Shown: positions 19,901 through 55,305 of the stretch, piece by piece
Numbering within the stretch: the stretch's first letter is position 1
Layout: each line of letters begins with the position of its first letter
DNA from: Hydractinia symbiolongicarpus
Taxonomy: Eukaryota; Cnidaria; Hydrozoa; Anthoathecata; Hydractiniidae
NCBI RefSeq assembly: GCF_029227915.1
Contig: NC_079880.1
Coordinates: 24,182,501-24,246,500, forward strand
Length of the DNA: 64,000 nt
Direction of reading: 5' to 3'
The notes under the pieces: generated by a model
What the model was told of the DNA's origin: nothing
Databases searched by the model: none
What the model saw: only the letters and a program-made list of their open reading frames with translations
Translations under genes and position numbers: made by a program

Positions 19901-22900
19901 TAGTAAGTTTAAATATCGGATGAGCTATTTGAAGATATAATAAATATAATTCAATTTTAGCCGTTGCTAAATGACATTCTTTCATTCAAATAATAAATTA
20001 TTAAAAAATTTACCCAGACCAATAGTTGTTCGTCTAACATGGAATTTGCAAATTCTTTTTGCGTGAATCAGTCTATTCTTATAGCAATGTGGAACCAATT
20101 AAATCTTAAACATGATAAATTACTTTGGCAATTTTGTGCATTTTGTTACATTGCTTACATGATTACGAATGTGCATACTATTTTCTAAACAAAAGTTTTA
20201 ATTAGGGTGCAAAGTAATCATACCTTTTGATCATTTATTCCCGCAAAATCAGTAGATGTAGGGGTATGCATATTGTTAGCCGTCAGTTGTGCTGTATATG
20301 TAGACATTATGACAGTCATGCAGACAGCAAAAGTCAAGGCAGATAGACGTCCATGAATGGTGATGGGGTTTCGTCCTCCAATATCCCGTTGGAATATTAA
20401 ACCTGTGGTATACGCGAATACGTCTCGCCATGAAAAACGTTCTCCTGTCTTACTAATATTTTCAAAAACAAAAAGCACAATTTGAACAATCATGCCTGTT
20501 ATGGCCACCATAACAAGCAGTAAATTATCCAAAGGGTCTAGAAATTTCCATGTAATAAAGGATAAATTTTCTTCTGGTATAGTTCGTCGAATTATAGCAA
20601 AATACGAATTCTGGAAACCCACAGAAAAATCCAGCACATGTTGTCTTTGGGAAGTTTGTGTAATTCCCTGTATACCGATATCTGCTTTGTCAGAAAATAC
20701 TTCGTTAATAATTCCATTCCAAGTTCCATTTTCAACACCCCCAAATGCTCCATCCTCTGCTATATAAAGTTCAAATTTAACATGCCAATTGTTTGCAATT
20801 AAGGTTAGCAAATCGACTGCGAGCCCAAAGCAGCACGAATGCCTCCATTTTGTATCATTTTTCCTAGTGTCAGGAACAAGACACGATACGCCAACTATAC
20901 AGTCATTATCCACAGGATGTGAGCTCAGTGATATGCAATATGGAGCATATAGAACACTAACAGCTCTCCATGTCTCTTGCGGAAATCGCGCTTTCAAACG
21001 TGAATGTTGACTCGCTTTTACTTCAACGAAATTTGTATGTAACATGGGTAAGCTTTGAATTCTATGAATAGGTAAATTTCAAAGACACAAAGAGGTGAAT
21101 GCTATATATTTAAAAAAACGCACGACATATTTTTATAGTAAAGTAATCGGGAATAAAACAGTAAATAAATATCATTTTTGCAGGTTATAATTTTGCTGAG
21201 TGTTGATATAAAATATACCTATCACTTTACATTTATTTTGTTATTCATTATAGTTCTCAATCCGCAGGTAGTACAATTCATAGTAAGCATTAAAAAAATA
21301 AGAAAGTAACCCTGGATACTCACATGTGATTAAAATCTTTTGCCTCTAGTAACGCATTAATCTTTTTTACATTCACTATTTTTTCATCAACTCTAGTGTT
21401 TTGAAGGTTAACTAAGTATAACTTTGGGTACAATGTTTTCATTCCTTTAAACACATGTACTGATATATCTGTTGTTATAAACATAACTCTTCCAATGGCA
21501 TAGCGTTGCATTTTTTCCAATACCATATTCGCATCAAGTGGAGATAATAGGAGCAGTACTATCTCTGTTTTTTTCAGGAGCTGTGGTATGTAACTTAGTA
21601 TTTGATCTTTATACAATGCCTGGCAGACAAATTTCAGATTATTTTCTTTGAACTTTGAACGTAATGTGTTAACAATGATGTTATAACAATCTCTGTACGC
21701 TATGATCAATAGTTGTGTTGTTGAAAAATCTCTCATAATGTCTATCAACTCCTCGCTGTGATCTGTATCGTAAGATACAGTATGTTCTTGCTGTTCACTT
21801 TCATCCTAAACCAGAAAGAATTTACTGTTAGCAAAAAGATATAGTAAAACAAATATTTAAGAGCAAAGGTAAAAGATTTGCGTATTTGTGAAATATTTTA
21901 CCATACAAAGCCTTGATGCACTAATGTACGGTGCACGTGTTTAGTCTACATTTCCACAATTTTTGACAAAAAATGCAATAGCTCAAAACCAGTTCAGCTT
22001 ATTAAAAATCAATCACAGTTTTTAGACCTGCTTCTTGGTACAGAGCGATTATAAAAACAGGCAAAAGTATACCCGTGAACTAATATAAAACACCACGTAC
22101 ATTGATTAAAAATTCAAGCACTCAAAATATCTATAACATCGCCAGAACTGGTTCTATAAAGTTATATAGATACCCTAAGTACACACAACTTTTTTTAAAC
22201 ATTAGTCAAGCAGGTGACATCATATATAATAGACAGACAGAAATTCTATATGCGTGAAATACTAATGATTAAGCGCCCCTGCGCTTATTTTGTTACAAAA
22301 AATAATGACACACATTGAGTACAAAAAGGTTTTTTACTTAGAAAACTTGTAACCCATAGCAACTTCTGTTAGACCTATGTAATAAAATTGTTGTTATATG
22401 GTTTTTGTAGTTCATGTACTTTCTGACTTCCGTAATTTTGTTAATTAAAAGGAGACGAAAGGCGTTATGTTTTTAAGTCAAGTGTTTGTTACGCGACACC
22501 AAGTTTAGATAGGGTTAATACCCTACATAATCTATCACCGTAACACAATTTATCGTGGATATTAATTTTAAAAGGATATCAGAATAAAGACCTCTCAAAA
22601 TGTGTAAAAGGTAACCAGGGATAAATAATAATTTAGCTCTGTTATAGATAAAATTTGGTAGCTAATATTTACAACAGAAATTTGTTATTCGACATGTGTC
22701 TTTAAATGGAATAGAATTAAACAATACGCTGCCATTGATAAACTCATACTCATACTTCTAAACTGCTATGCTACATTTATAGTACAATCAAATTTCTACC
22801 AAGCCATTGTCAGGAGTAAATATATCAGAATCACAAACTAACTGGGAATCTCTTGCTATGAGCTGTTAAGGAAACTGCTACTGCTGTTATAGTGTTTATA

Positions 22901-35480: not shown

Positions 35481-35609
35481 GTCGACTCTTCTTTTTCCAA
35501 TGTCTAACAAAAGTTATTGCTTTTGGCGGATGGCATCATTAAATGTGGCTGGTGTCTTGCAGGAGGCAGGGAATGCTTACCAAGGGCCCGCACCAGATCC
35601 CAAGCATGA

Positions 35610-36516
35610 ATGAATTTCACCAATCCTCAAGTTTCCAGGAATAGCGGCCTAAAAAACTTGGGAAACACATATTATGCAAACTCAATCTTGCAATGTTTTT
35701 ATAACCTTCCAAAAGTTAAAGAAGCCATTTCTGTTAGCAAAACAACCTCAAAGTTAGGCGAAGCATTTGTAGGTGTTCTTCAAAGTTTGGCTGTTTCTAG
35801 AAGTCCAGTTGATCCCTCCCATTTTTTGCGTGCTATGAAACATCATATCTCAGCTGCTTAGGGAAGTGCATTTAATATCTTTGCTCAGCACGACGTCCCC
35901 GACGTCCCACGAGGTCCTTGAATATCTCCTACCTGGTCTGTCATTAGACTTTTCATTTCTTGGAAGTCTTTTTAGTATTGGCATCAAGACATCAACCACT
36001 TGCAATTCATGTCATATTACCAGCTCCTCAGAAGTTATAGCACCATGCATCCAACTTTCTCTGCACCCTAAGTTACAATCTTCCTTAGATAATTTCTTTG
36101 AAAGCGAGGAGTTGTCAGACACCAATGCCTACTTCTGCCATGTTTGCAACGCTCATCAAACTGCTCTAGTTGAAAAAAAGGTAGTGTCATGCGGTTCCCA
36201 TCTCATTTTACAGCTAAAACATTTTGCCAGTGCCAACGGCCTTGTGTCAAAAATTGCTTCTCGTATTACTGCTTACCCTGGTACCCTTTCCATACCTTTT
36301 ACCGTAGATGAAGAAGTGTAATTTCGTAAAAATTTTCAATTAAGGGCTATTATCAACCATTGCGGCAACTTAAATAATGGTCACTACACAACCATAGCCT
36401 TCGACCAAATGGTTCACAGGTGGATACATTGCAACGATAGAGCAGTAATTTTCTGCGATGACCGCCTTATTAACAGTCACGACTCATATGTTTTCTTTTT
36501 AGAAGAGCTGAGATAA
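35610..36516 (+). pseudogene. Ubiquitin-specific protease (USP/C19) domain, copy 1
   Basis: Cys box 'GLKNLGNTYYANSILQC' at about 35644: the catalytic Cys is replaced by Tyr (codon 35670-35672). The middle has a Cys-pair finger ('TCNSC' about 35998, 'FCHVC' about 36134). The His box is 'GNLNNGHYTTIAF' with His at 36382-36384, followed by 'WIHCNDRAV'. There is one frameshift or small insertion at about 35860 and an in-frame stop near 36320. USPs cleave ubiquitin from proteins; this copy cannot, lacking the nucleophile and the frame. About 300 residues, compact for the family. Confidence 0.85.
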
Positions 36517-36665
36517 GAACATTTAAACCAGAATGAGTCAGCAAGGGGGCTTGACTACACTCTGTCTTGTCTTTGGAAAGTGACGACTTCACTTATTACC
36601 TGAGTTAAAAACAAAGAATAGCACAGTTGAACAGAAAGTGGCCAAAGTTTACTTTAGGAAGATAG

Positions 36666-36775
36666 GGATGTCTAGTTTCTGCTGATGACCGTCCGCGGAC
36701 CTCTTCGAGGTGACCCAGCTAGACATCCAGGGTACTTAGGTTCAGAAATATGGGTCGAAACCTACCTGCCCTTGG
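36666..36775 (+). ncRNA. Structured 3' UTR RNA, copy 1
   Basis: Outer stem GGATGTCTAG (36666-36675) with CTAGACATCC (36719-36728). Inside lie 'ctgatga', a GTCC/GGAC hairpin and a CCTC/GAGG hairpin. Downstream a TAGGTT/AACCTA stem holds 'gggtcgaaacc'. The same architecture with different paired sequence recurs at 54701-54815. Confidence 0.65.
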
Positions 36776-36945
36776 TTAAAGTTCTGTTCATCTTTTCAAA
36801 TGTGTTGTGTCCTTTTTATTTTTTTATATTTTTTTTAATTAATTCCTTGTTAAAAAGGAGAATTGTGCTTTTAGAGGCATTTTCTCTAGAGGAGTACAAC
36901 CTCTAGCTTATTTCCAAAGACCTAACAGGTTGAGTTCATCATTGC

Positions 36946-36959
36946 GGTGGCTTGCCACC
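36946..36959 (+). terminator. 3'-terminal hairpin of the element, copy 1
   Basis: GGTGGC-TT-GCCACC after 'catcattgc', near the 3' end of the element. Copies at 39791, 39886, 45981 and 55306 keep the hairpin position with other sequences. A role in reverse-transcriptase recognition is inference. Confidence 0.45.
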
Positions 36960-37346
36960 TCTTTGTAAATTATCTTCTTGTTTAAGTACAACCGAAATCC
37001 ATTAGCTTTTTGATCATCCCTGTAAAGGGGAGAATACAGAAGTTTTCCAGTTGCTTCTTATTCTTTGAAGAGAAACCTCCATTTTTTAATTAATATCTCT
37101 GTCTTAAAAGGCTAGTTATATCTGCATTGCAGTGTAGTTACTCCTATTCTCCTTTTGGATAATCCTTGGTTAACCATTGATTGGATTTTTTTTTGGCTAT
37201 GTTTAGCAAATAGCGAAATGTCATTAGTAAACAGTGTACATTTACACTGAGCAGAAGATTCAGTAACAATTCTTTCACTGCCACAATGCCCAACTTCCTT
37301 TTGTTTAGCGGCAACCTACGACACCCTTCTCTCTCCAACCGATCTT

Positions 37347-38170
37347 ATGAGATATGGAATTGAGAAAGACAAAAGTTGCATTTTGTGCAAGAAACAATCC
37401 TCAAATATCTCTCACATATTAGGTGCCTGTAGGACCTTCCTTATGCAGGGTAGATACACATACCGCCACGACTCGGTTTTAATTGTTTTGGTTAATGCAT
37501 TAAAAGAGTTTTTGTCATCATATGAACCACTTAAGGTTTACAAGGTCAAAAAAACTAAAATCATTCCGGGCGGTCAATCACCATCTAAGAAGAGGAATAC
37601 AAAGTGTCCAGGCGTTCTTCACTTTGCTTCCGATTGGAAAATACTGTCAGATTTAGATTTCGTTTTGTTGTTCCACCATACATTGCAATAACACAACTAC
37701 ACCCAGACGTGTTATTAATATCGAGTTCTCCAAAACCGTAATTATCTTAATTATGTCCATGTGAAGAGAACACGAAATATTGGCACGAACGAAAGCTTAA
37801 CAAATATTCTTCACTTTGCTATGCTATTCAAAACAGTGGATGGATCGTGCATTTCTTTGCTGTTGAGGTGGGCACAAGGGGTTTTTGTTCAGAATCACTG
37901 AACATCTGTTTTCGTTGCCTTGGTTTCCCTAACAAGCCTCTACGTTTCCTATTAAATTCCCTAACTTTTATCTCCATGAGTGCTTCTTTTTACACCTGGA
38001 TGTCTCGAAATTCTACCACTTGGGTTTAGCCTGAAAAGGTTCCAATCGTTGCTGAAGTTTTTTGGGTTACAAATATGGCATATAAAAAACCAAAAACACC
38101 TGAGAAATCTTCAGCTAGTCACACAAAGTCTTGTAAAACCCCCCAAAAAACGAAAAACTTGCTACAAGGT
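37347..38170 (+). pseudogene. R2-type CCHC knuckle and restriction-like endonuclease, copy 2
   Basis: 'CILCKKQSSNISHILGAC' (about 37380-37430) is a CX2CX8HX4C knuckle, as found after the RT in R2, NeSL, CRE and related clades. 'RTFLMQGRYTYRHDSVL' follows. The endonuclease region is damaged: 'HFFAVEVGTRGFCSESL' (about 37850-37900) and the end 'LNSLTFISMSASFYTWMSR' survive, while the PD and ExT core lies in broken frames. The open frame then heads, over a linker rich in Lys, Pro and Ser, into the USP. Confidence 0.65.
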
Positions 38171-38190
38171 CTTTTAAAACAAAAGTCGCA

Positions 38191-39077
38191 TTGCCATCTA
38201 ACACTGAGTTTAGCAATAGCGGTCTAAAAAATTGGGGAAACCCGTGTTATGCAAATTCAATGTTACAATGTTATAACCTTCCAAAAGTTAAAGAAGCCAT
38301 TTCTGTCAGCAAAACAACCTCAAAGTTAGGCGAAGCATTTGTAGGTGTTCTTCAAAGTTTGGCTGTTTTTAGAAGTCCAGTTGATCCCTCCCATTTTTTG
38401 CGTGCTATGAAACATCATATCTCGGCTGGAAAAGAAGTATGTTTGATATCTTTGGTCAGCACAACGTCCCCGAGGTTCTTGAATATGGCCTACCTGGCCT
38501 GTCATTAGACTTTCCATATCTTGGAAGTCTTTTTAGTATTGGCATCAAGACATCACCCACTTGCAATTCATGTCATATTACCAGCTCCTCAGAAGTTATA
38601 GCACCACGCATCCAACTTTCTCTGCACCCTACGTTACAATCTTCCTTAGATAATTTCTTTGAAAGCGAGAAGTTGTCAGACACCAATGCCTACTTCTGCC
38701 ATGTTTGCAACGCTCGTCAAACTGCTCTAATTGAAAAAGAGGTAGTGTCATGCGGTTCCCATCTCATTTTACAGCAAAAACGTTTTGCCAGTGCCAGCGG
38801 CCTTGTGTCAAAAATTGCTTCTCGTATTACTGCTTACCCTGGTACCATTTCCATACGTTTGACCGTAGATGGAGAAGTGAAATTTCGTAAAAGATTTCAA
38901 CTAAGGGCTATTATCAACCATTGCGGCAACCTAAATAATGGTCACTACACAACCATAGCTTTCGACCAAAAGGTTCACAACTGGATACATTGCAACGATA
39001 GAGCAGTAATTTTCTGTGATGACCGCCTAATTAACAGTCACAGGTCATATGATTTCTTTTTAGAAGAGCTGAGGTAA
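38191..39077 (+). pseudogene. Ubiquitin-specific protease (USP/C19) domain, copy 2
   Basis: Best preserved copy. The Cys box 'GLKNWGNPCYANSMLQC' keeps the catalytic Cys (codon 38245-38247). Two zinc-finger-like Cys pairs follow ('TCNSC', 'FCHVC'). His box 'GNLNNGHYTTIAF' has His at 38943-38945, then 'WIHCNDRAV' with the Asn/Asp position. A single frameshift at about 38430 separates two long open parts; the second runs 212 codons to the TAA at 39075. Close to copy 1 but distinct from host USPs in lacking insertions. Mature element protein would end with this domain. Confidence 0.85.
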
Positions 39078-39100
39078 GAATATTATAACCAGACTGAGTC

Positions 39101-39470
39101 AGCAAGGGCGCTTGACTACTCTAAGTCTAGTCTTTGGAGAGTGACGACTCCACTTATTACCCCAGTCAAAAATAAAAACAAAATCAAGAAAAAATTAAGT
39201 TAGCAAGGGGGTTTGATCATACTAGGTTTTGTCTTTGGAGAGTGACGACTCCACTTATTACCCCGGTCAAAAATAAAAACAAAATCAAGAAAAAATTAAG
39301 TTAGCAAGGGGATTTGATCATACTAGGTCTTGTCTTTGGAGAGTGACGACTCCACTTATTACCCCAGTCAAAAAAAATATATATTAGCAGGGGGGTTTGA
39401 TCACACATGATCTAGTCTTTCAAGAGTAACGACTCCGCTTATTACCTGTGTTAAAAACAAAGAATGGCAC
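39101..39470 (+). repeat. 3' UTR tandem repeat, about 101-bp unit, four copies
   Basis: Units start at 39101, 39202, 39303 and 39386, each 'agcaaggg..', then 'ttga', 'agtgacgactccacttattacccc' and an A-rich spacer. Copies 1 and 3 of the element have only one unit (about 36539 and 54558). The units at 39202 and 39303 are nearly identical; the last is shorter and diverged. Confidence 0.8.
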
Positions 39471-39511
39471 AGTTGAACAGGAAGCGTTTAAAGTTCACTT
39501 TAAGAAGATAG

Positions 39512-39620
39512 GGATGTCTAGTTTCTGCTGATGGCCGTCCGCGGAGCTCTTTGAGGTGACCTAGCTAGACATCCAGTGTACTTAGGTTCAGAGATATGGG
39601 TCGAAACCTATCTGCCCTTG
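39512..39620 (+). ncRNA. Structured 3' UTR RNA, copy 2
   Basis: Outer stem GGATGTCTAG (39512-39521)/CTAGACATCC (39565-39574). Inner hairpins are slightly weakened by substitutions relative to copy 1. 'gggtcgaaacc' is conserved. Confidence 0.6.
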
Positions 39621-39790
39621 GTTAAAGTTCTGTTCATCTTTTCAAATGTGTTGTGTCCTTTTTATTTTTTTATATTTTTTAAATTAATTCCTTGTAAAAC
39701 GGGAGAATTGTGCTTTTAGAGGCATTTTCTCTAGAGGAGTACAACCTCTAGCTTATTTCCAAAGACCTAACAGGTTGAGTTCATCATTGC

Positions 39791-39804
39791 GGTGGCTTGC
39801 CACC
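39791..39804 (+). terminator. 3'-terminal hairpin, copy 2
   Basis: GGTGGC-TT-GCCACC, same position and sequence as copy 1. A variant hairpin ACAGC-TT-GCTGT at 39886-39897 follows in the next element fragment. Confidence 0.45.
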
Positions 39805-39898
39805 TCTTTGTAAATTATTTTCTTATTTTTAGATTGTGTAACCTCCTACAATTCAGAAACAAAAGATTAGGCTATTTCCATTATCACAGCTTGCTGTT

Positions 39899-43189: not shown

Positions 43190-43890
43190 CGCCGTTGGAT
43201 TCCAAGTGTACCTTTCTAAGGGGCGGTTTCTTGGTCAGCCCAAGCATTATGATACGATTTCTCAAATCTTCATGTCTAAGATGCTGATTTTCATTCTTTG
43301 TCACAACCTCTCTAAGGGCTGAGTTCCAAGTCTACCTTTCTTAGACCTGGGCTCTCTGTCAGTAGGCAAAAGCAACAACGATACGAATTGTAGTTGTCGA
43401 CTCTTCTTTTTCCAACGTTTAACAAAAGTTATTGGTTTTAGCGGATGGTGTCAATAAATGCGATTGGTGTCTTGCAGGAGGCAGGGGATGCTTACTCAAA
43501 GGCCCGCACCAGATCCCAAGCATGAGTGAATTTCACCAATCCTCATGTTTCCACATTCATAGGTGTTTGTTTCAGTACACCCGAAATCCATTAGCTTTTC
43601 GATCATCCCTGCAAAGAGGAGAATGCAGAAGTTCTCCAGTGGCTTCTTATTCTCTGATTTATAATGCTATAAAATTTTCCATATCATTCTTTAACAACTT
43701 TTCTTCTTCCATAGATCTTTATAGTTTGAGATAAATGTCGACAAGAACACGCTTTTCATCTGTTAAGTCTGCTCAGCCTACGGCAGTTACGAATCCTTTA
43801 CTGTGTTGTGAAGCATCTCCGTCCCTTGATGATTTTACGTTCATTACATCTGCACGTAATATTTTGTTATTAGAATTGAAATAGTGTTTA
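43190..43890 (+). mobile_element. 5' region of the USP-bearing element family
   Basis: Contains the segment at 43396-43555 (shared with 35480 and 47435) followed by the 'gtttcagtac.cccgaaatccattagc' segment (shared with 36985, 45575 and 47545). Its position before a short ATG-led frame suggests 5' UTR. Confidence 0.5.
43735..43884 (+). CDS. Short ORF, possible N-terminus of the element protein
   Basis: 49 codons from ATG to TAG, rich in Ser and Thr at the start, with a Cys pair and 'SLDDFTFITSARNILLLEL' at the end. It follows the element's 5' segments directly. It is truncated by a stop and matches no domain I know. Confidence 0.3.
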   Translation: MSTRTRFSSVKSAQPTAVTNPLLCCEASPSLDDFTFITSARNILLLELK

Positions 43891-44984: not shown

Positions 44985-45330
44985 CGTTTAAAACATTTTT
45001 AATCTAAATATTGGGCATTTATTAAAGATCGGAATGTAGAGGAGTGGTTGAAATGCGATAACAGGGCAGTAGTTAAGGTTAAGCCGTCTGATATAATTCA
45101 ACAGTTATGTGTTGTTCTTTCTCAAGCTGTGAAACGCGAGTTTTGCTTTGTAAAAGGTGGAGGATTTCTTTTCCTAGCGGTTTTATTACCCCGGCTGTTA
45201 TTTTCACTGGCCGCCTACCGTAATTAATAAGTTTGCTCACTCCCCACTCTCTTACAGAGTAATTAAAAGAAGCTAAGCAAGGAGGTTTGACAATCTGTCT
45301 TGTTTTTGGGGTTTGACGGAGTCCATTGGG
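44985..45330 (+). pseudogene. USP domain C-terminal remnant, copy 4
   Basis: Encodes 'YWAFIKDRNVEEWLKCDNRAVVKV' in two pieces: 'KYWAFIKD' at about 45010 and 'EEWLKCDNRAV' at about 45038-45070. This matches the end of a USP (His box then W-x-x-C-N/D-R/x-x-V). It is followed by the family's 3' UTR phrase 'agcaaggaggtttgac'. It is more diverged than copies 1 and 2, so an older or different lineage. Confidence 0.55.
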
Positions 45331-45419: not shown

Positions 45420-46010
45420 AGAAATTTCTTGTTCAGATCTTCGTGGATTTACGCCCATGCATTTTACCCCAGTAACTTCAGGCTGATCTTGACATACGGC
45501 TGGTCCCGAGCGTCAATCACCTGTGTAAGGCTAAGTGTTGGGATCCGTAACATATGTAGAAAGCTACTCCTCAAGTGTTTGTTTCAGTACAGCCAAAATC
45601 CATTAGCTTTTTGATCATCCATGTAAAGGGGAGAAGACAGAAGTTTTCCAGTGGCTTTTTATTCTTTGGAGAGAAACTTCCTTTTTTTCATTAACATCTC
45701 TGTCTTAAAAGGCTAGCCATATCTGCATTGCAGTGTAGTTACTTCTATTCTCTTTATAGTTTTATGTTCATATTTATTTGTTTCTTTCTATGTTGTATAG
45801 CACTTTGTAACTGGCAGTAGGTGTTTGTGATGTAATGTATATAGAGGGTCTTTAGTCCAATTACCTCGATTCTGCAGACTATTCTTGTAAAAAGGGAGAT
45901 CCTGCACTGAATATAGATCTCTAGAGGGTGTAACATCTACAATTCAAAAACGAAAGAGTCAGTAGACCAGTTCCATCATTACAGCTCGCTGTTTTATTAT
46001 CTCACAATCA
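45420..46010 (+). mobile_element. 5' and tail segments of the element family
   Basis: Starts with a stretch found inverted at 63890-64000, continues with the 'cagccaaaatccattagc' segment (45575-45740), and ends in the tail segment with hairpin ACAGC-TC-GCTGT at 45981-45992. No coding sequence remains. Confidence 0.5.
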
Positions 46011-47429: not shown

Positions 47430-47730
47430 CAATGAACTTTAATGCGCCTGGTGGCTTGCAGGAGGCAGGAAATGCTTACTCAAGGGCCCTCACCAGATCC
47501 CAAGCATGGATGAATTTCACCAATCTTCATGTTTCCACATTCATAGGTGTTTGTTTCAGTACAGCCGAAATCCATTAGCTTTGAGATCATCCCTGTAAAA
47601 GAGAGAATACAGAAGTTCTCCAGTTGCTTCTTATTCTTTGGAGAGAAACCTTATATTTTCAATAACATGTCTTAAAAGACTAGTTATATCTCCATTGCAA
47701 TGTAGTTACTTCTATTCTTTTTAATGAGTA
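47430..47730 (+). mobile_element. 5' segments of the USP-bearing element, another copy
   Basis: 'cttgcaggaggcagg..atgcttactcaa' through 'cagccgaaatccattagc' and 'agttatatctccattgcaatgtagtta', in the same order as at 43.4 kb. No ORF follows. Confidence 0.6.
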
Positions 47731-49700: not shown

Positions 49701-49759
49701 CAGACAGCCGTCTTGACTTTTGCCACATTTTTGATCCCCTTGAAAGACACGGCCTTACC

Positions 49760-50578
49760 TCTCTGCTAGAATTGGTTAAATTAAAGCTGCGATCCTTTAG
49801 AGGAAAAAAGAACAGGAAGAAACGATGGAAAAGGCTTAAGTCTTACCGTGTGTTTATCAAAGATCCTTATCAGGCTGACAAAAATTAACTAGACCCTAAG
49901 AGCTTTGTCAAGTTCCAAGTACCAAAAGAGTCTATGGATGACCACAAAAAGAAATCATTGCAAGATCCAATGCGTGATGTACCATTGCCCTTATTGGAAA
50001 GTTTACCATTACCTCCTAAGCAGGCTAAAACCTTCAATACATCACCTTTTACATTTCAAGAATTTCAACAAGCTCTTCAGTCTCGCCGCAATGGCTCTGC
50101 GCTAGGTATCCATATGATACCATATAATGTTTACAAATATTGTCCCAAAACTGCTTCTTTCTTATTTAACACATTAAAATTATGTCTTAAACAGTCATTT
50201 TTTCCTTTGCAGTGGCGTGTTGCATCTGACGTTTTTATCCCAAAATGCAAGCCTCCCGATCCATCCTGCATAAAGGATTATAGACCATTAGCTTTATTGA
50301 ATGTGGAAGGTAAACTGTTCTGTAGCCTAATCTCGAAACGTTTAGAGACGCACAAAATAACAAATAATAACTCACCAACAAAAGTATTCAGAAAGGTTGT
50401 ATGGAAAAGGTTACTGGTTGTTGGGAGCATATGTCCCTAGTTTGGTCGGCATTAAAATCTGCCAAGACTGACAAAGCTTCAGTTTCAGCTATTTGGCTGG
50501 GTGTAGCTAATGCATACCCTTAGTACCGCACAAACTTATCTTCTTTGCTTTAGAACGTTATGGTGTATCACCTTCCTG
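49760..50578 (+). pseudogene. Reverse transcriptase, first part (copy 3)
   Basis: The open frame 49934-50440 covers the RT fingers: 'FTFQEFQQALQSRRNGSALG', 'FPLQWRVASDVFIPKCKP' and 'IKDYRPLALLNVEGKLFCSL', typical of non-LTR reverse transcriptases. A frame change leads to 'GCMEKVTGCWEHMSLVWSAL', then 'VPHKLIFFALERYGVSPSW' just before the nested transposon. The PxxLL and DYRP signatures fit R2-like clades. Confidence 0.75.
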
Positions 50579-50581
50579 GAT

Positions 50582-52203
50582 CCCAGCCGGCACACCAACG
50601 TCGCAGAGACGTTGTAGCGACGTCGAGTTTTACGTCGGTGCGACGTCCGCTCAACGTCAGAATGGAAAGTCGCGCAGACGTCGGCTTCGATGTCAGTGCA
50701 CAATGTCCTATCGACGTCCTGGCTACGTTGCCTAGACGTCTGCCATTTTACAGACGTATAACTAGGAAGTTAAACGACGTTACAGCGACTTAGCTGCGAT
50801 GTTAACGGACGTAACAAAGACTTTCTTTAAAACAAAAAGTGATTTTAAAAATTATTTTCTTTCATAATTTACTAGTATTCACATTTGTTAAATTACACTA
50901 GTATCAGAAGACACTTGATAACTCATATTTTTTACAATAACTTTATGTTCCCAAGCATAAACATTTTTCATCACCTCTTCATTTTTACGTGCATCTTCAG
51001 TATAGATACGATTTTTCATCGACTTTTTCTTCTATTTGCTATAGAAAGAAAATAAAGGTATTAAAATATGATCTAACTAGTGATATAAATTGCAAGGAGA
51101 AATTGTCACAGAAAGAAGATAAAAACTTTTTATATAAAAATATTTTTTTGGAAATAGCAAGATGTGTAATTGTAAAGCTATGTGTTCAAAGAGATATATA
51201 TTAACAGATTCTACAGTTTTCAATTGATGTGCCTAGATACAATGTTAGTTATAAAGTAACTAGACTAACTTACTGTTTCTTCTTCCTAAAGCGGGAATCT
51301 TCTCAATTCCTTTTTGTCGCTTTTTTCATCAACCTAAAATAAAGATATTTCATCTATAGCATATGCAAAATAATGACACCATATAAACTTGAAATATGTA
51401 TACATTGTATTTCATATAAATATTCAGGGTAACCCAGGGAATTAAAAAAAACTTACTGCTTGTCAGATCCTTTTTCAATATAATTTGAAATATTTCCACT
51501 TTCTTTCTTTTCTTCTATATGTTCGTAAAAAAAAATCTACAATACTTTACCAACAAAAAATGCTTAAAATTAACACGTAAGGATTTAAGAAAGAAACTGA
51601 CACATATATAACGTTTCAACAAATAAATTTCCAAAACGTTTGCAACTTCAACTTTCTTTGGTAAAGAGAAAAAACATGTTTTTATTTAAATTCGCAGCGA
51701 CTTCTTTTTCTGTTCGAAAGTGCGATATTTTAACAAATCAAATTCAATAAATTTTATCATATGGTTTGGTCACATCTATTACAAATTTAAACTGGAAACT
51801 TTTGCGCTTTCTCTGTTAAAGATAAAATTATAATAAAAACGTATCCATCTTCAATCTCCATAAGTCAGTCAGTTATTGCATTTGTAAAAACTGCGTTTTA
51901 TTTTTCTAAGAAAATTTTAAGAATAATTTTTGCCTGAAAAACTTATCGAAACTTACGTTAATGCGACGTTGGTACAACGTCGTGTTGAACTATAATTCCG
52001 TCTGATACCTTAACGTCGGATCGACGTCGGTTTATGGTCGGTATGCGACGTCGAAATTCCAGACGTTGTATCGACATCGGTTTATGGTCGAAGTACGGCG
52101 TTGGAAATTACGACGTTGAAGCGACGTTGTAACAACGTGGCCGACGTCGCGACGTAGCAGCGACTACCAACAGACGTCTGTACGACATCGTGTGCCTGCT
52201 GGG
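50582..52203. mobile_element. Nested DNA transposon with ACGTC-rich inverted ends
   Basis: Termini CCCAGCCGGCACACC and the complement of CCCAGCAGGCACACG. Subterminal regions of about 240 bp at each end are packed with 'gacgtc', 'acgtcg' and 'cgacgt' motifs. It is flanked by GAT on both sides, a 3-bp target duplication. Removing element and one GAT restores the RT frame ('SWILLIKTYYGGLWS'), which proves the insertion. The AT-rich interior (50830-51950) has no transposase, so it is non-autonomous. Superfamily not assigned. Confidence 0.85.
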
Positions 52204-52480
52204 GATATTACTTATTAAGACTTATTATGGTGGCCTATGGAGTAAATCCTTTTCACTCTTCCCTATCAGGGTGGCACTTGCATGAAAAAGGTATTTATAT
52301 TGGTTGCAACCTCTCGATTATTCTTTAATGATCCCGCCCAACCACCAATGAAAGCATTTATGGACGACATTTTTCTAATGTCTCCCTCAGCACATGATTG
52401 TCAGAAGTTCCGTGACCGTTGTATTACTGGCCTTAACTGGGCAGGCATGTCGCAGTATTGTCACTGAAATACAAAGGTAG
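52204..52480 (+). pseudogene. Reverse transcriptase, second part with FMDD active site (copy 3)
   Basis: 'LIKTYYGGLWSKSF', then after a frame change 'PPMKAFMDDIFLMSPS' (about 52345-52390), where MDD is the catalytic pair of the RT palm. The frame breaks at 52467. Confidence 0.7.
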
Positions 52481-52779
52481 CTGGGTATCATCAAATAGGG
52501 AAAGCTGGTTTTGGTCTTATTAAGCAGAAGGATATACCTACTAAAGGATGCCAAAAATACCGCAAAACCATCTCTGACATAGTTTATGAACACGAAGAGG
52601 AGATTTTACAAGCCCGTGCAGTGCAACTCCATATTCAAGACAACTGGATGAAATGGTGCAGTTACGTGTAAAACGATCTTTCGTGGAGCACCCTTTTGGC
52701 TCTGCCACAATGTCTAATTTGATTTTGATTGAGTCCACATAAGACACACTGCCTTCACCAATTAATCTAGTTCGCTGGG

Positions 52780-53420
52780 GATTACAAAAAGACGCAAGCT
52801 GTAGTTTGTGTAAAAAAAACATCTGTACAGTTCCCCATATCTTAGGTGCTTGTAAAGTTGTCCTAACTCAGGGTAGGTATTCATATCGTCAAGACACTGT
52901 GTTACGCACCCTTGTAACCTTCCTTCAAGATTTTTTATCGTTGTACAAACCATCTCCTTCCAACAAATCTAGAAATATTCGTTTTGTTTCTGCTGGTAGT
53001 TACTCCACGGCAAGGCAGAAAAAAACCTCCAACAGGCATTCTCCATTCAGCTTCAGATTGTCCAGTTATGTGTGATCTTGATACAACATTAATAATACCA
53101 CCTGATGTAGCTGTTACTGAACTTAGGCCTTGTGTTACTTTCTCGTAAGACAAGAGTAGTTATAGAGTTGACATGTCCTTGTGAGGAAAATATAGAGAAA
53201 TGGCATGACACGAAAACTGATAAATACTTTCTGTTATTGCGGACAATGCAAATTAATGGTTGGGCAGTTCACTTCTTCGCAGTTGAGGTTGGCGCTCGTG
53301 GGTACTGTTCAGATTCTGTGCGTACTTGTTTACGTCGTCTAGGTTTTTCACCCAAGTTAATTCGTTCACTCTAAAATTACTTGGTTCTATTGCAATGAAA
53401 TGCTCCTTCCATATTTGGTT
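52780..53420 (+). pseudogene. CCHC knuckle and restriction-like endonuclease (copy 3)
   Basis: 'CSLCKKNICTVPHILGAC' is a CX2CX8HX4C knuckle, then 'LTQGRYSYRQDTVLRTL'. The endonuclease shows 'LIIPPDVAVTE' (about 53090-53125) with the PD, and after a frameshift 'TRVVIELTCPCEENIEKW' (about 53150-53205) with the E-x-T core, then 'VHFFAVEVGARGYCSDSV' and 'LRRLGFSPKLIRS'. Knuckle plus PD-(D/E)XK-type nuclease downstream of RT is diagnostic of R2-group elements, which cut DNA with this domain to prime reverse transcription. Confidence 0.7.
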
Positions 53421-53589
53421 GGCCAGAGATTCAAACCCTTTGGAAACACTTACTACAACAACAGACGGTTTCCCTAAAAGCAAGTCACCTTTCAAATTTG
53501 CCAAAAGCAAATCATCTGTCCAAATAACTAAGAGGAAAATAAAATCTTCACGGTTAACAAAAGAGTTAATGCTTACAAACAGTTGCATA

Positions 53590-54500
53590 CAAAAAAGGGT
53601 AACACTTGCTATGCAAATTCTATTTTGCAATGTTTAAACTCCCTACCGCAATTCCATCTATCCCATCCGACAGGAAATCCTTCCTTGTAACCTCTTGTCG
53701 AATGTTTTCGATCAATTGTCATCTTCGAAAGTCCCAGTTGATCCATCCGCTTTTCTTGCCACCCTAAAAAATGCTATAAGTAAAGTAAAAGGTAATTTTG
53801 ATATTTTTACACAGCATGATGTTCCTGAAATCTTGGGTTATTTGCTACAGACTCGCTTTTTACTACTACCATGTTCCAGTATAGTACTAGAACTACAATC
53901 ACATATGACACATGTTTCCAATCACCATCTATTGATGAAATGTCTCTATTTCTTAAATTGCAACCAAGACCCACAATTCAGCAGTACTGAACCGGCATAA
54001 ATGGGGTATGCAGTATGCATAAATCCACATGAGAAAAAAGCTAGCCATTTTCACGATATGTTTTGCACATCAAGCGTCTATTTTTTTGACAAAGTTCTCG
54101 CTTGAATCCACCATTATGCTTTTTTTTATACCCGTTTGACGATAACAACATACGGGAAGTCCGTCACATGTGTTGGAGAAAAATAGCGACAAATGCCATA
54201 AAATTTTTTTAGAGTCGGCAAAAGATACAGAAGTGTCGGGATTTGCTATTCTTACTATAACGGGCAATCAAGACATGAAGTAAACAACGTAGAATGACAT
54301 CGACCCTGAGGTAAGAAGCTGTAAGCACTTTAAGATCAGAGCGCTTATAAACCACTCTGGTTCTCTTAATAGTGTGCACTATACATCCATTGTTCAAGAC
54401 CAAAAGACAGACCAGTGGCAATGACAGAGCTGTGACACAATATGATGTTTGGAAGGAACTTAACAGCAAACTGTCCTACGTCTTCTTCTTCCAGGCAATT
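53590..54500 (+). pseudogene. Ubiquitin-specific protease domain, copy 3
   Basis: 'GNTCYANSILQCLNSLPQ' (about 53598) keeps the catalytic Cys. 'VPVDPSAFLATLKNAISKVK' and 'FDIFTQHDVPEIL' match the same block in copies 1 and 2. A finger Cys pair is seen in 'YDTCFQSP' form near 53905. The His box is 'GSLNSVHYTSIV' near 54365, His kept but Gly lost. Stops and frameshifts separate the parts, and sequence between 54000 and 54250 is scrambled. It is clearly diverged from copies 1 and 2, so the USP has been carried by the family for some time. Confidence 0.75.
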
Positions 54501-54700
54501 TAAAATGATAGAAAATAAAATAAAAATAGAAAATTTTTAAAAATATATATCGCCTAGCAAGGGGGTTTGACTTGCTTAGTTCCCTTTTTACAGGTTCCTA
54601 CAAGCCTTGTCTTTGTGTGTAACGACCCCACTTATTACCCCAGTCAACTCTTGTATATGCCAATAGATTGCACGGATTAAAGAACATTTGATGACTGAAG

Positions 54701-54815
54701 AGGATTCCAGGGCCTCCTGATGACCACTTAGTGGACCTCAAATTAGAGGTGCCCTGCCTGGAATCCTGACACCCATTGATTGAGGCTTTGGGGCGAAACC
54801 GTTTGGTGTCAAGGT
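54701..54815 (+). ncRNA. Structured 3' UTR RNA, copy 3
   Basis: Outer stem AGGATTCCAGG (54701-54711)/CCTGGAATCCT (54757-54767), perfect 11 bp. Inside: 'ctgatga', hairpin CCACTTAGTGG and hairpin CCTC-AAATTA-GAGG. Downstream TGACACC/GGTGTCA encloses 'ggggcgaaacc'. Same layout as copy 1 with nearly all paired positions changed. Confidence 0.7.
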
Positions 54816-55305
54816 TGGTATTGTGCAATCTTTTGTTGTGAGTGTGTTTTTTTTGTTTTCTTTGTTGTTGTTTTTTTTCACTTATATTGTGTATCCTGCC
54901 AAAAGGAAGTTTAACTGTCTTCTTGGCAGTAACTTTGGAGGAACAAAACCTCTATGATATAGCCCTAAAACTTAACAGGTTGAGTATTTAATTGTGCTTT
55001 GTTGCAATGTTCAAATTTCTCTCTACAGCCTTAGCTACCATTATACTATAAATTTGCAGAATTAGCATATTTTCGGAGAAGACTGCAGACTAACTTCATT
55101 TTGCAGATCCCACACGGTAGTAATTTACGGAACCAGTAAATCGCAGTGCGTATAATTATACTGTATCCACTAACTATTCCGTTACAGCCTAGTTACAGGT
55201 TTTCCCTGACTGCTAACTATTGTACAGTTGTACCTAAAAGTACTAAAAGGGTTGAAACCTCTAACTATAGTATAACCAACTGTTATAAGAGAAGTGAAAT
55301 CATTG

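Follow-up and report, generated by a model that had tools for sequence, protein, structure and literature searches.

The stretch of the Hydractinia symbiolongicarpus genome analysed here (RefSeq assembly GCF_029227915.1, contig NC_079880.1, positions 24,182,501 to 24,246,500 of the forward strand; 64,000 bp in full and hereafter called the window) is AT-rich (35% GC), abounds in repeats and carries three damaged copies of a non-long-terminal-repeat (non-LTR) retrotransposon. The features of restriction-like endonuclease (RLE)-class elements, namely reverse transcriptase (RT), C-terminal knuckle and PD-(D/E)xK-like endonuclease, were found together with a ubiquitin-specific protease (USP). We read the copies as dead members of an RLE-class, R2-like family of long interspersed nuclear elements (LINEs) with a C-terminal USP, for which we predict the role of a tethered deubiquitinase, likely sparing the element's own protein, and give this reading a probability of about 0.72.

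Three element copies in the window

Coordinates of the copies are collected in Table 1, where P0001, P0005 and P0056 denote protein relatives described in the next section. An earlier note on this DNA had read in copy 3 an RT with FMDD, a CX2CX8HX4C knuckle, an RLE and a USP with Cys and His boxes, and the one-frame relative P0005 indeed matches these pieces in order; the Cys box GNTCYANS lies, with the linker, in the piece 53368-53847 and the His box INHSGSLNSVHYTS within 54299-54418. Copy 3 is dead, because an insertion of foreign sequence splits its RT and its frame shifts several times. The endonuclease-then-USP order recurs in copy 2, where knuckle and RLE occupy 37266-37978 and the USP follows, with stops and frame shifts along the copy. 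As the note had held, copies 2 and 3 are clearly diverged (48-51% amino acid identity between copy 2 and the copy 3 piece 52474-53365); on an RT-RLE tree both group with Hydractinia rows, with support of 100 for copy 2 and 89 for copy 3, a placement that would by itself point to a hydrozoan near Hydractinia as the likely host.

The comparison with Pfam RVT_1 and UCH that the note had suggested came out in part. Copy 2 was matched well by UCH (PF00443; 38385-39074, E 1.9e-14, and around the Cys box at 38137-38505, E 7e-06), with USP8 at E 1.8e-13 among PDB sequences, whereas copy 3 gave weak matches (RVT_1 on the piece 49889-50437, E 0.032; UCH, E 0.0069, below the gathering score). The zf-RVT matches on the knuckle pieces of copies 2 and 3 (E 0.0005 and 0.0008, correspondingly) were both under the gathering score as well. 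The calls of USP and RT in copy 3 and of both knuckles are putative and lean on the intact relatives.

Copy 1, which is 91% identical to copy 2 at the DNA level, sits in a dispersed repeat, of which uninterrupted versions at 43455-43660 and 47438-47640 reveal the target: the flanks rejoin, with approximately 13 bp missing after insertion. This comparison fixed the ends of copy 1 to within a few bases. It should be added that the dispersed repeat occurs in four places (35481-35637 with 36978-37154, the place broken by copy 1; 43396-43657; 45575-45756, where there is the right part only; and 47438-47723), and that a stretch near 45.9 kb is similar to what flanks copy 2 on the right. The motif near the 3' end (Table 1) was found in exact form in copies 1 and 2 only and in none of 100 shuffles, and this GGTGGC-GCCACC motif has no other occurrence in the window at up to three mismatches. 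With their common 3' end and 5' truncation, as RLE-class non-LTR retrotransposons show, copies 1 and 2 have the anatomy of 5'-truncated LINE copies, and the USP lies within the inserted unit.

Table 1. Features of the three element copies, in window coordinates
Feature	Position	Strand	Basis
Copy 1, 5'-truncated: USP (35640-36513) and 3' untranslated region (UTR) only	35638-36977	+	tblastn P0001 88-95%
Copy 1, motif near 3' end, GGTGGCTTGCCACC (self-complementary arms) and TCTTTGTAAAT	36946-36970	+	
Copy 2, 5'-truncated: knuckle and RLE, linker, USP, 3' UTR	~37266-39829	+	tblastn P0001 74-84%
Copy 2, USP: Cys box GNPCYAN, His box NHCGNLNNGHYTT, one frame shift	38215-39074	+	Pfam, PDB matches
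Copy 2, tandem units of the 3' UTR, period 101 then 83	39121-39446	+	multiplied relative to copy 1
Copy 2, same motif near 3' end, GGTGGCTTGCCACC and TCTTTGTAAAT	39791-39815	+	
Scrap of a further USP C-terminus	45009-45074	+	tblastn P0005 59% over 22 residues, E 3.5e-4
Copy 3, coding part	49736 to ~54491	+	order of one-frame relative P0005 (tblastn)
Copy 3, region before RT and first RT part, frame-shifted	49736-50582	+	tblastn P0005 53-75%, residues 180-463
Copy 3, foreign insertion inside RT, ~1.6 kb	50583-52204	.	P0005 residue 463 resumes at 52205
Copy 3, RT palm, FMDD at 52357-52368	52205-52452	+	tblastn P0005 56-71%
Copy 3, RT thumb, CX2CX8HX4C knuckle, RLE (CEENIEKWHDTKTDKY ... VEVGARGY)	52474-53365	+	tblastn P0005 36-68%
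Copy 3, linker and USP remains	53368-54491	+	tblastn P0005 32%, 45%, 40%; P0056 40-46% at end
Copy 3, 3' UTR stretch common with copy 2 tandem units	54602-54647	+	85-88% identity, 43-47 bp; 3 mismatches/25

One-frame relatives and conservation of the domains

Relatives were collected in three protein searches: with the joined RLE and USP pieces (91 proteins, a query that favours USP-bearing matches), with RT-RLE alone, which is neutral towards the USP (187 proteins, of which the best 120 were taken), and from a deeper part of the clade (109 proteins). A USP profile, home-made from 14 of the same proteins, scored in 87 among the best 120 of 187 RT-RLE matches. At least 219 proteins were obtained altogether; 129 exceeded 15 bits for the profile and 110 contained the whole USP domain, the Gypsy protein P0089 and the RLE-less P0090 included. 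RT, RLE and USP were joined in one continuous frame, for which the earlier note had proposed a test, in 72 of these 110, of which 53 measured at least 1300 residues.

The best relative, P0001, is a protein of H. symbiolongicarpus itself (LOC130628696; 67% identity over 67% of the joined-piece query), whose frame runs from RLE through linker into USP and stops about one third into the USP domain. The seven named Hydractinia proteins further comprise P0056, with full USP and without RT, and five proteins without USP. P0056 is annotated as 'ubiquitin carboxyl-terminal hydrolase 51-like' and looks like the RLE-USP end of a member of this element family, perhaps a domesticated one, rather than a host gene; some 'ubiquitin hydrolase' gene models of this kind look like retroelement pieces and are to be checked before being counted as host genes.

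The USP stands at the extreme C-terminus, with 10 or fewer residues behind it in 102 of 104 measured proteins, and starts at a median of 101 residues behind the GxRG motif of the RLE, with a low-confidence linker in between. In the 30 members analysed with Pfam, RVT_1 was present throughout (30/30) and zf-C2H2 in three; N-terminal finger-like motifs were seen in eight of 12 inspected proteins, irregular in P0102 and absent from P0005, P0126, P0110 and P0124.

The catalytic residues are kept almost without exception: among the 110 full USP domains Cys was present in 110, His in 109 and Asp in 110, with the triad whole in 109 (107/108 if P0089 and P0090 are left aside) and all four zinc cysteines in 108. 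His is lost in one full-length member, P0028. The remaining domains are likewise conserved at their key positions, FMDD being invariant in a 30-row alignment, R-P-D, E-x-T and K of the RLE in a 40-row alignment, and the columns of the CX2C..H..C knuckle invariant or nearly so among relatives. The best structural matches of the USP were USP35, USP8, USP2, USP46 and USP12, and the best match by sequence was USP15. It shares with cellular USPs (USP2, USP46, USP8, USP15, USP36) the fold, the Cys and His boxes and the zinc-finger cysteines, and differs from them in being fused to RT-RLE. In the PDB the RT part was best matched by R2 and L1 proteins, with structural Z of 23.9-35.1 for R2 rows and 22.0-30.1 for L1 rows; the alignments continue into the RLE part in four R2 rows only, so that few rows test it, and the one with R2Tg (9dou) extends to residue 1030 of 1051.

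Among 60 picked long rows, median pairwise identity fell from 0.51 (RT) and 0.43 (endonuclease) to 0.27 (N-terminal 150 residues), 0.26 (USP) and 0.13 (linker). RT was better conserved than the USP in 1770/1770 pairs, and the USP better than the linker in 1461/1488. Judged from these alignments, the USP is constrained at its active site and elsewhere the fastest-changing of the three domains.

History of the fusion and relation to known elements

The 160-row RT-RLE tree (both large RT-RLE trees were calculated with FastTree and have local support only) placed 86/86 USP-bearing rows within one clade of 118 rows with local support 99. The 42 rows outside it (fish, Mytilus and others) are all without USP, and 37 of the 39 measurable ones end 44-73 residues past the RLE motif. 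Within the clade, 21 of the 32 rows with low USP scores end 40-100 residues after the RLE, like USP-less elements, although some, P0099 and P0100 among them, may be only cut or broken models; the rest include cut gene models, and seven rows have no match to the RLE motif. Two USP-less clades, of 15 and four rows, nest inside the USP clade with support of 100. Loss of the USP in some lineages is likely, because the short ends look natural and the USP-less clades are so well supported.

Several independent gains, instead of one gain followed by losses, would be the alternative history, given that the USP label has to change 15 times on the 160-row tree; some of these changes come from short or cut models and P0111 (12.5 bits) was entered as USP-less, so that gains and losses are not exact counts. 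Distances in RT-RLE and in USP correlate (r 0.737 over 78 rows; best of 999 permutations 0.220). A USP tree was built from seven outside USPs and 49 of these 78 rows of elements (one subclade of 20 in full, and every second of the other 58), and its version constrained to a single element-USP clade was better than the free tree and was not rejected (p 0.856). The USPs of L001 and L003 (IMG/VR) and L005 (bacterial bin) fell among element USPs in the unresolved part of the free tree (three changes); scans of GTDB and IMG/VR contigs gave distant USPs only, with 0/5, 4/37 and 3/53 pattern matches confirmed. A single capture with later losses would explain these data most simply, though it is not proven.

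RLE-class LINEs with a protease are already known, and what appears to be new is the USP on such an element. Nematode NeSL elements and Utopia-1_TSP bear an N-terminal Ulp1-like cysteine protease (PMC4640811) and resemble the present family in joining an acquired cysteine protease of the ubiquitin/ubiquitin-like type to an RLE LINE protein; their enzyme is, however, Ulp1 (C48) at the N-terminus, whereas the present family ends in a USP (C19), and Ulp1 (PF02902) had no match in the 30 members. Dualen/RandI elements are LINEs with a ubiquitin-type cysteine protease too, the OTU domain of Dualen, and differ in this OTU domain and in an apurinic/apyrimidinic-type endonuclease (APE), neither family being matched by Pfam in the 30 members. 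Dualen LINEs carry APE as well as RLE (PMC4640811). R2 elements (R2Bm, R2Tg) target 28S rDNA, whereas copy 1 lies in a dispersed repeat and the window holds no rRNA at Rfam gathering scores; R2 itself was seen among the PDB matches of the family. The closest named USP-less relatives outside the clade, among the matches listed, are RLE LINE proteins of fish and mussel (Clarias, Fundulus, Astyanax, pipefishes, Mytilus and others; 34-39% identity to the queries), which differ in having no USP.

The main text of the Hydractinia genome paper gives LINEs as 4% of each genome and does not contain 'ubiquitin' (PMC11067881). The earlier note had held a C-terminal USP in an R2-group protein to be, to its knowledge, undescribed, and we likewise found no description of a USP in a LINE among the open-licence papers listed, as judged by title and start of abstract; an entry in Repbase may exist.

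Other accessory domains were seen nearby. In the clade that adjoins the USP clade, the RLE LINE proteins P0191 and P0192 have NADAR (PF08719, E 8e-26 and 5e-31) as their C-terminal domain, in the place of the USP, and P0214, which has a long branch there, combines an N-terminal Ulp1 (residues 236-400) with RT in a NeSL/Utopia-like architecture. Such relatives, together with the USP, suggest that RLE LINEs repeatedly collect accessory enzymes. P0089 is a Ty3/Gypsy-type pol (aspartyl protease, RT, RNase H, integrase) with a full USP between protease and RT, which keeps Cys, His and Asp and groups weakly with outside USPs; perhaps a retroelement of another type has here acquired a deubiquitinase independently.

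Predicted role of the USP

In the scheme that we favour, the USP would have been captured once from a cellular USP and later lost in some lineages; it is predicted to cleave ubiquitin and, tethered, would strip host-attached ubiquitin from the element's own protein in cis, protecting that protein from its translation until target-primed reverse transcription. A role in cis could suit the tethered arrangement, since a newly made LINE protein is believed to associate with the RNA that encodes it. We give about even odds to the element protein or its ribonucleoprotein being the substrate. In mammals, destruction of LINE proteins through ubiquitin ligases of the host is reported: TRIM41 with nuclear cGAS attacks LINE ORF2p via ubiquitin (PMC10716122) and UBR2 with TEX19.1 targets LINE ORF1p (PMC5570191). 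A broader proposal, which we advance tentatively and rate as slightly less likely than not, is that a large clade of RLE LINEs goes back to one USP capture and uses a tethered deubiquitinase, fast-changing and catalytically intact, as a counter-defence against host ubiquitin restriction; it would have been maintained across deep divergence and dropped wherever it became unnecessary. Fast change of the USP would be the pattern expected of a host-facing domain. Should this be true, the conflict over ubiquitin described for mammalian L1 would extend to non-bilaterian animals, and the element would bring the antidote with it. If the USP works as predicted, it would offer, via one residue, a direct test of ubiquitin as a general barrier to retrotransposition in animals.

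Several points weigh against this interpretation. None of the seven named Hydractinia proteins has RT, RLE and USP all whole, none of the 72 one-frame proteins is a named Hydractinia protein, and two of these 72, P0043 and P0114, are labelled as coming from a Pseudomonadales metagenome bin, perhaps as misbinned animal DNA. The catalytic Cys is gone from the copy 1 USP (NTYYAN), and the USPs of copies 1 and 2, the one pair compared, have dN/dS of 0.93 over 201 codons (12, 14 and 10 changes at positions 1, 2 and 3), and therefore the window copies are dead and drifting, in neutral decay. The USP is dispensable in evolution, as 32 of the 118 clade rows are under the cut-off; the free USP tree, in which long branches abound, did not recover a single element clade; and structural Z alone does not tell R2 from L1. 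Weak constraint outside the active site would equally give fast divergence of the USP, and all functional steps of self-protection are predictions.

The strongest competitor, possible although we consider it the less probable role, is that the USP deubiquitinates host chromatin or target-site proteins, such as histones or repair factors at the nick, and so opens the site or mutes damage signalling during target-primed reverse transcription. Its position on a linker beside the endonuclease would suit this, as would the NCBI name 'USP51-like' of the Hydractinia fragment P0056 and the presence among the PDB matches of P0056 of 3mhh (E 1.1e-13), a chain which we take to be Ubp8, the yeast enzyme in the histone-deubiquitinating module of SAGA. 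The best matches by structure and sequence are, however, the other USPs named above, and no adaptor-binding part was recognised in the domain; the fold as such tells little of the substrate. Conversion of the USP into a ubiquitin-recognition module that is no longer an enzyme is improbable: P0028 without its His and the wide variation of the rest of the domain would agree with it, but Cys, His and Asp persist together in nearly all full domains despite the 26% median pairwise identity. Even less credit is due to processing of an element polyprotein, whether by splitting RT-RLE from USP or by trimming the C-terminus, as proteases of other retroelements do. USPs cleave after the C-terminal Gly-Gly of ubiquitin, and this role is unlikely because Pfam found no ubiquitin-like domain in the 30 members and almost nothing follows the USP as the last domain.

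Capture or overlap of a host USP gene by chance, meaningless for the element, can be practically dismissed, in agreement with the earlier note, since in spite of the Hydractinia gene model P0056 named USP51-like the fusion is common to 86 rows of one RT-RLE clade, relatives have it in one frame, and the USP and 3' UTR recur, up to a common 3' end, in two 5'-truncated copies, one of which sits in a repeat with uninterrupted versions elsewhere. A pseudogene confined to this locus, with relaxed selection, is a description that holds for the local copies and was rejected for the family. The observation of the earlier note was confirmed, and its interpretation was supported.

Elsewhere in the window, broken Ty3/Gypsy-like pol frames were recognised by eye at 31.1-34.3 kb. 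Identical reading frames recur 2160 bases apart (21323-21805/23714-23965 and 23101-23313/25261-25473, by eye), either through recent duplication in tandem or as an assembly duplicate, and the open reading frame beside this repeat, at 20221-21078, resembles by eye an ionotropic glutamate receptor.

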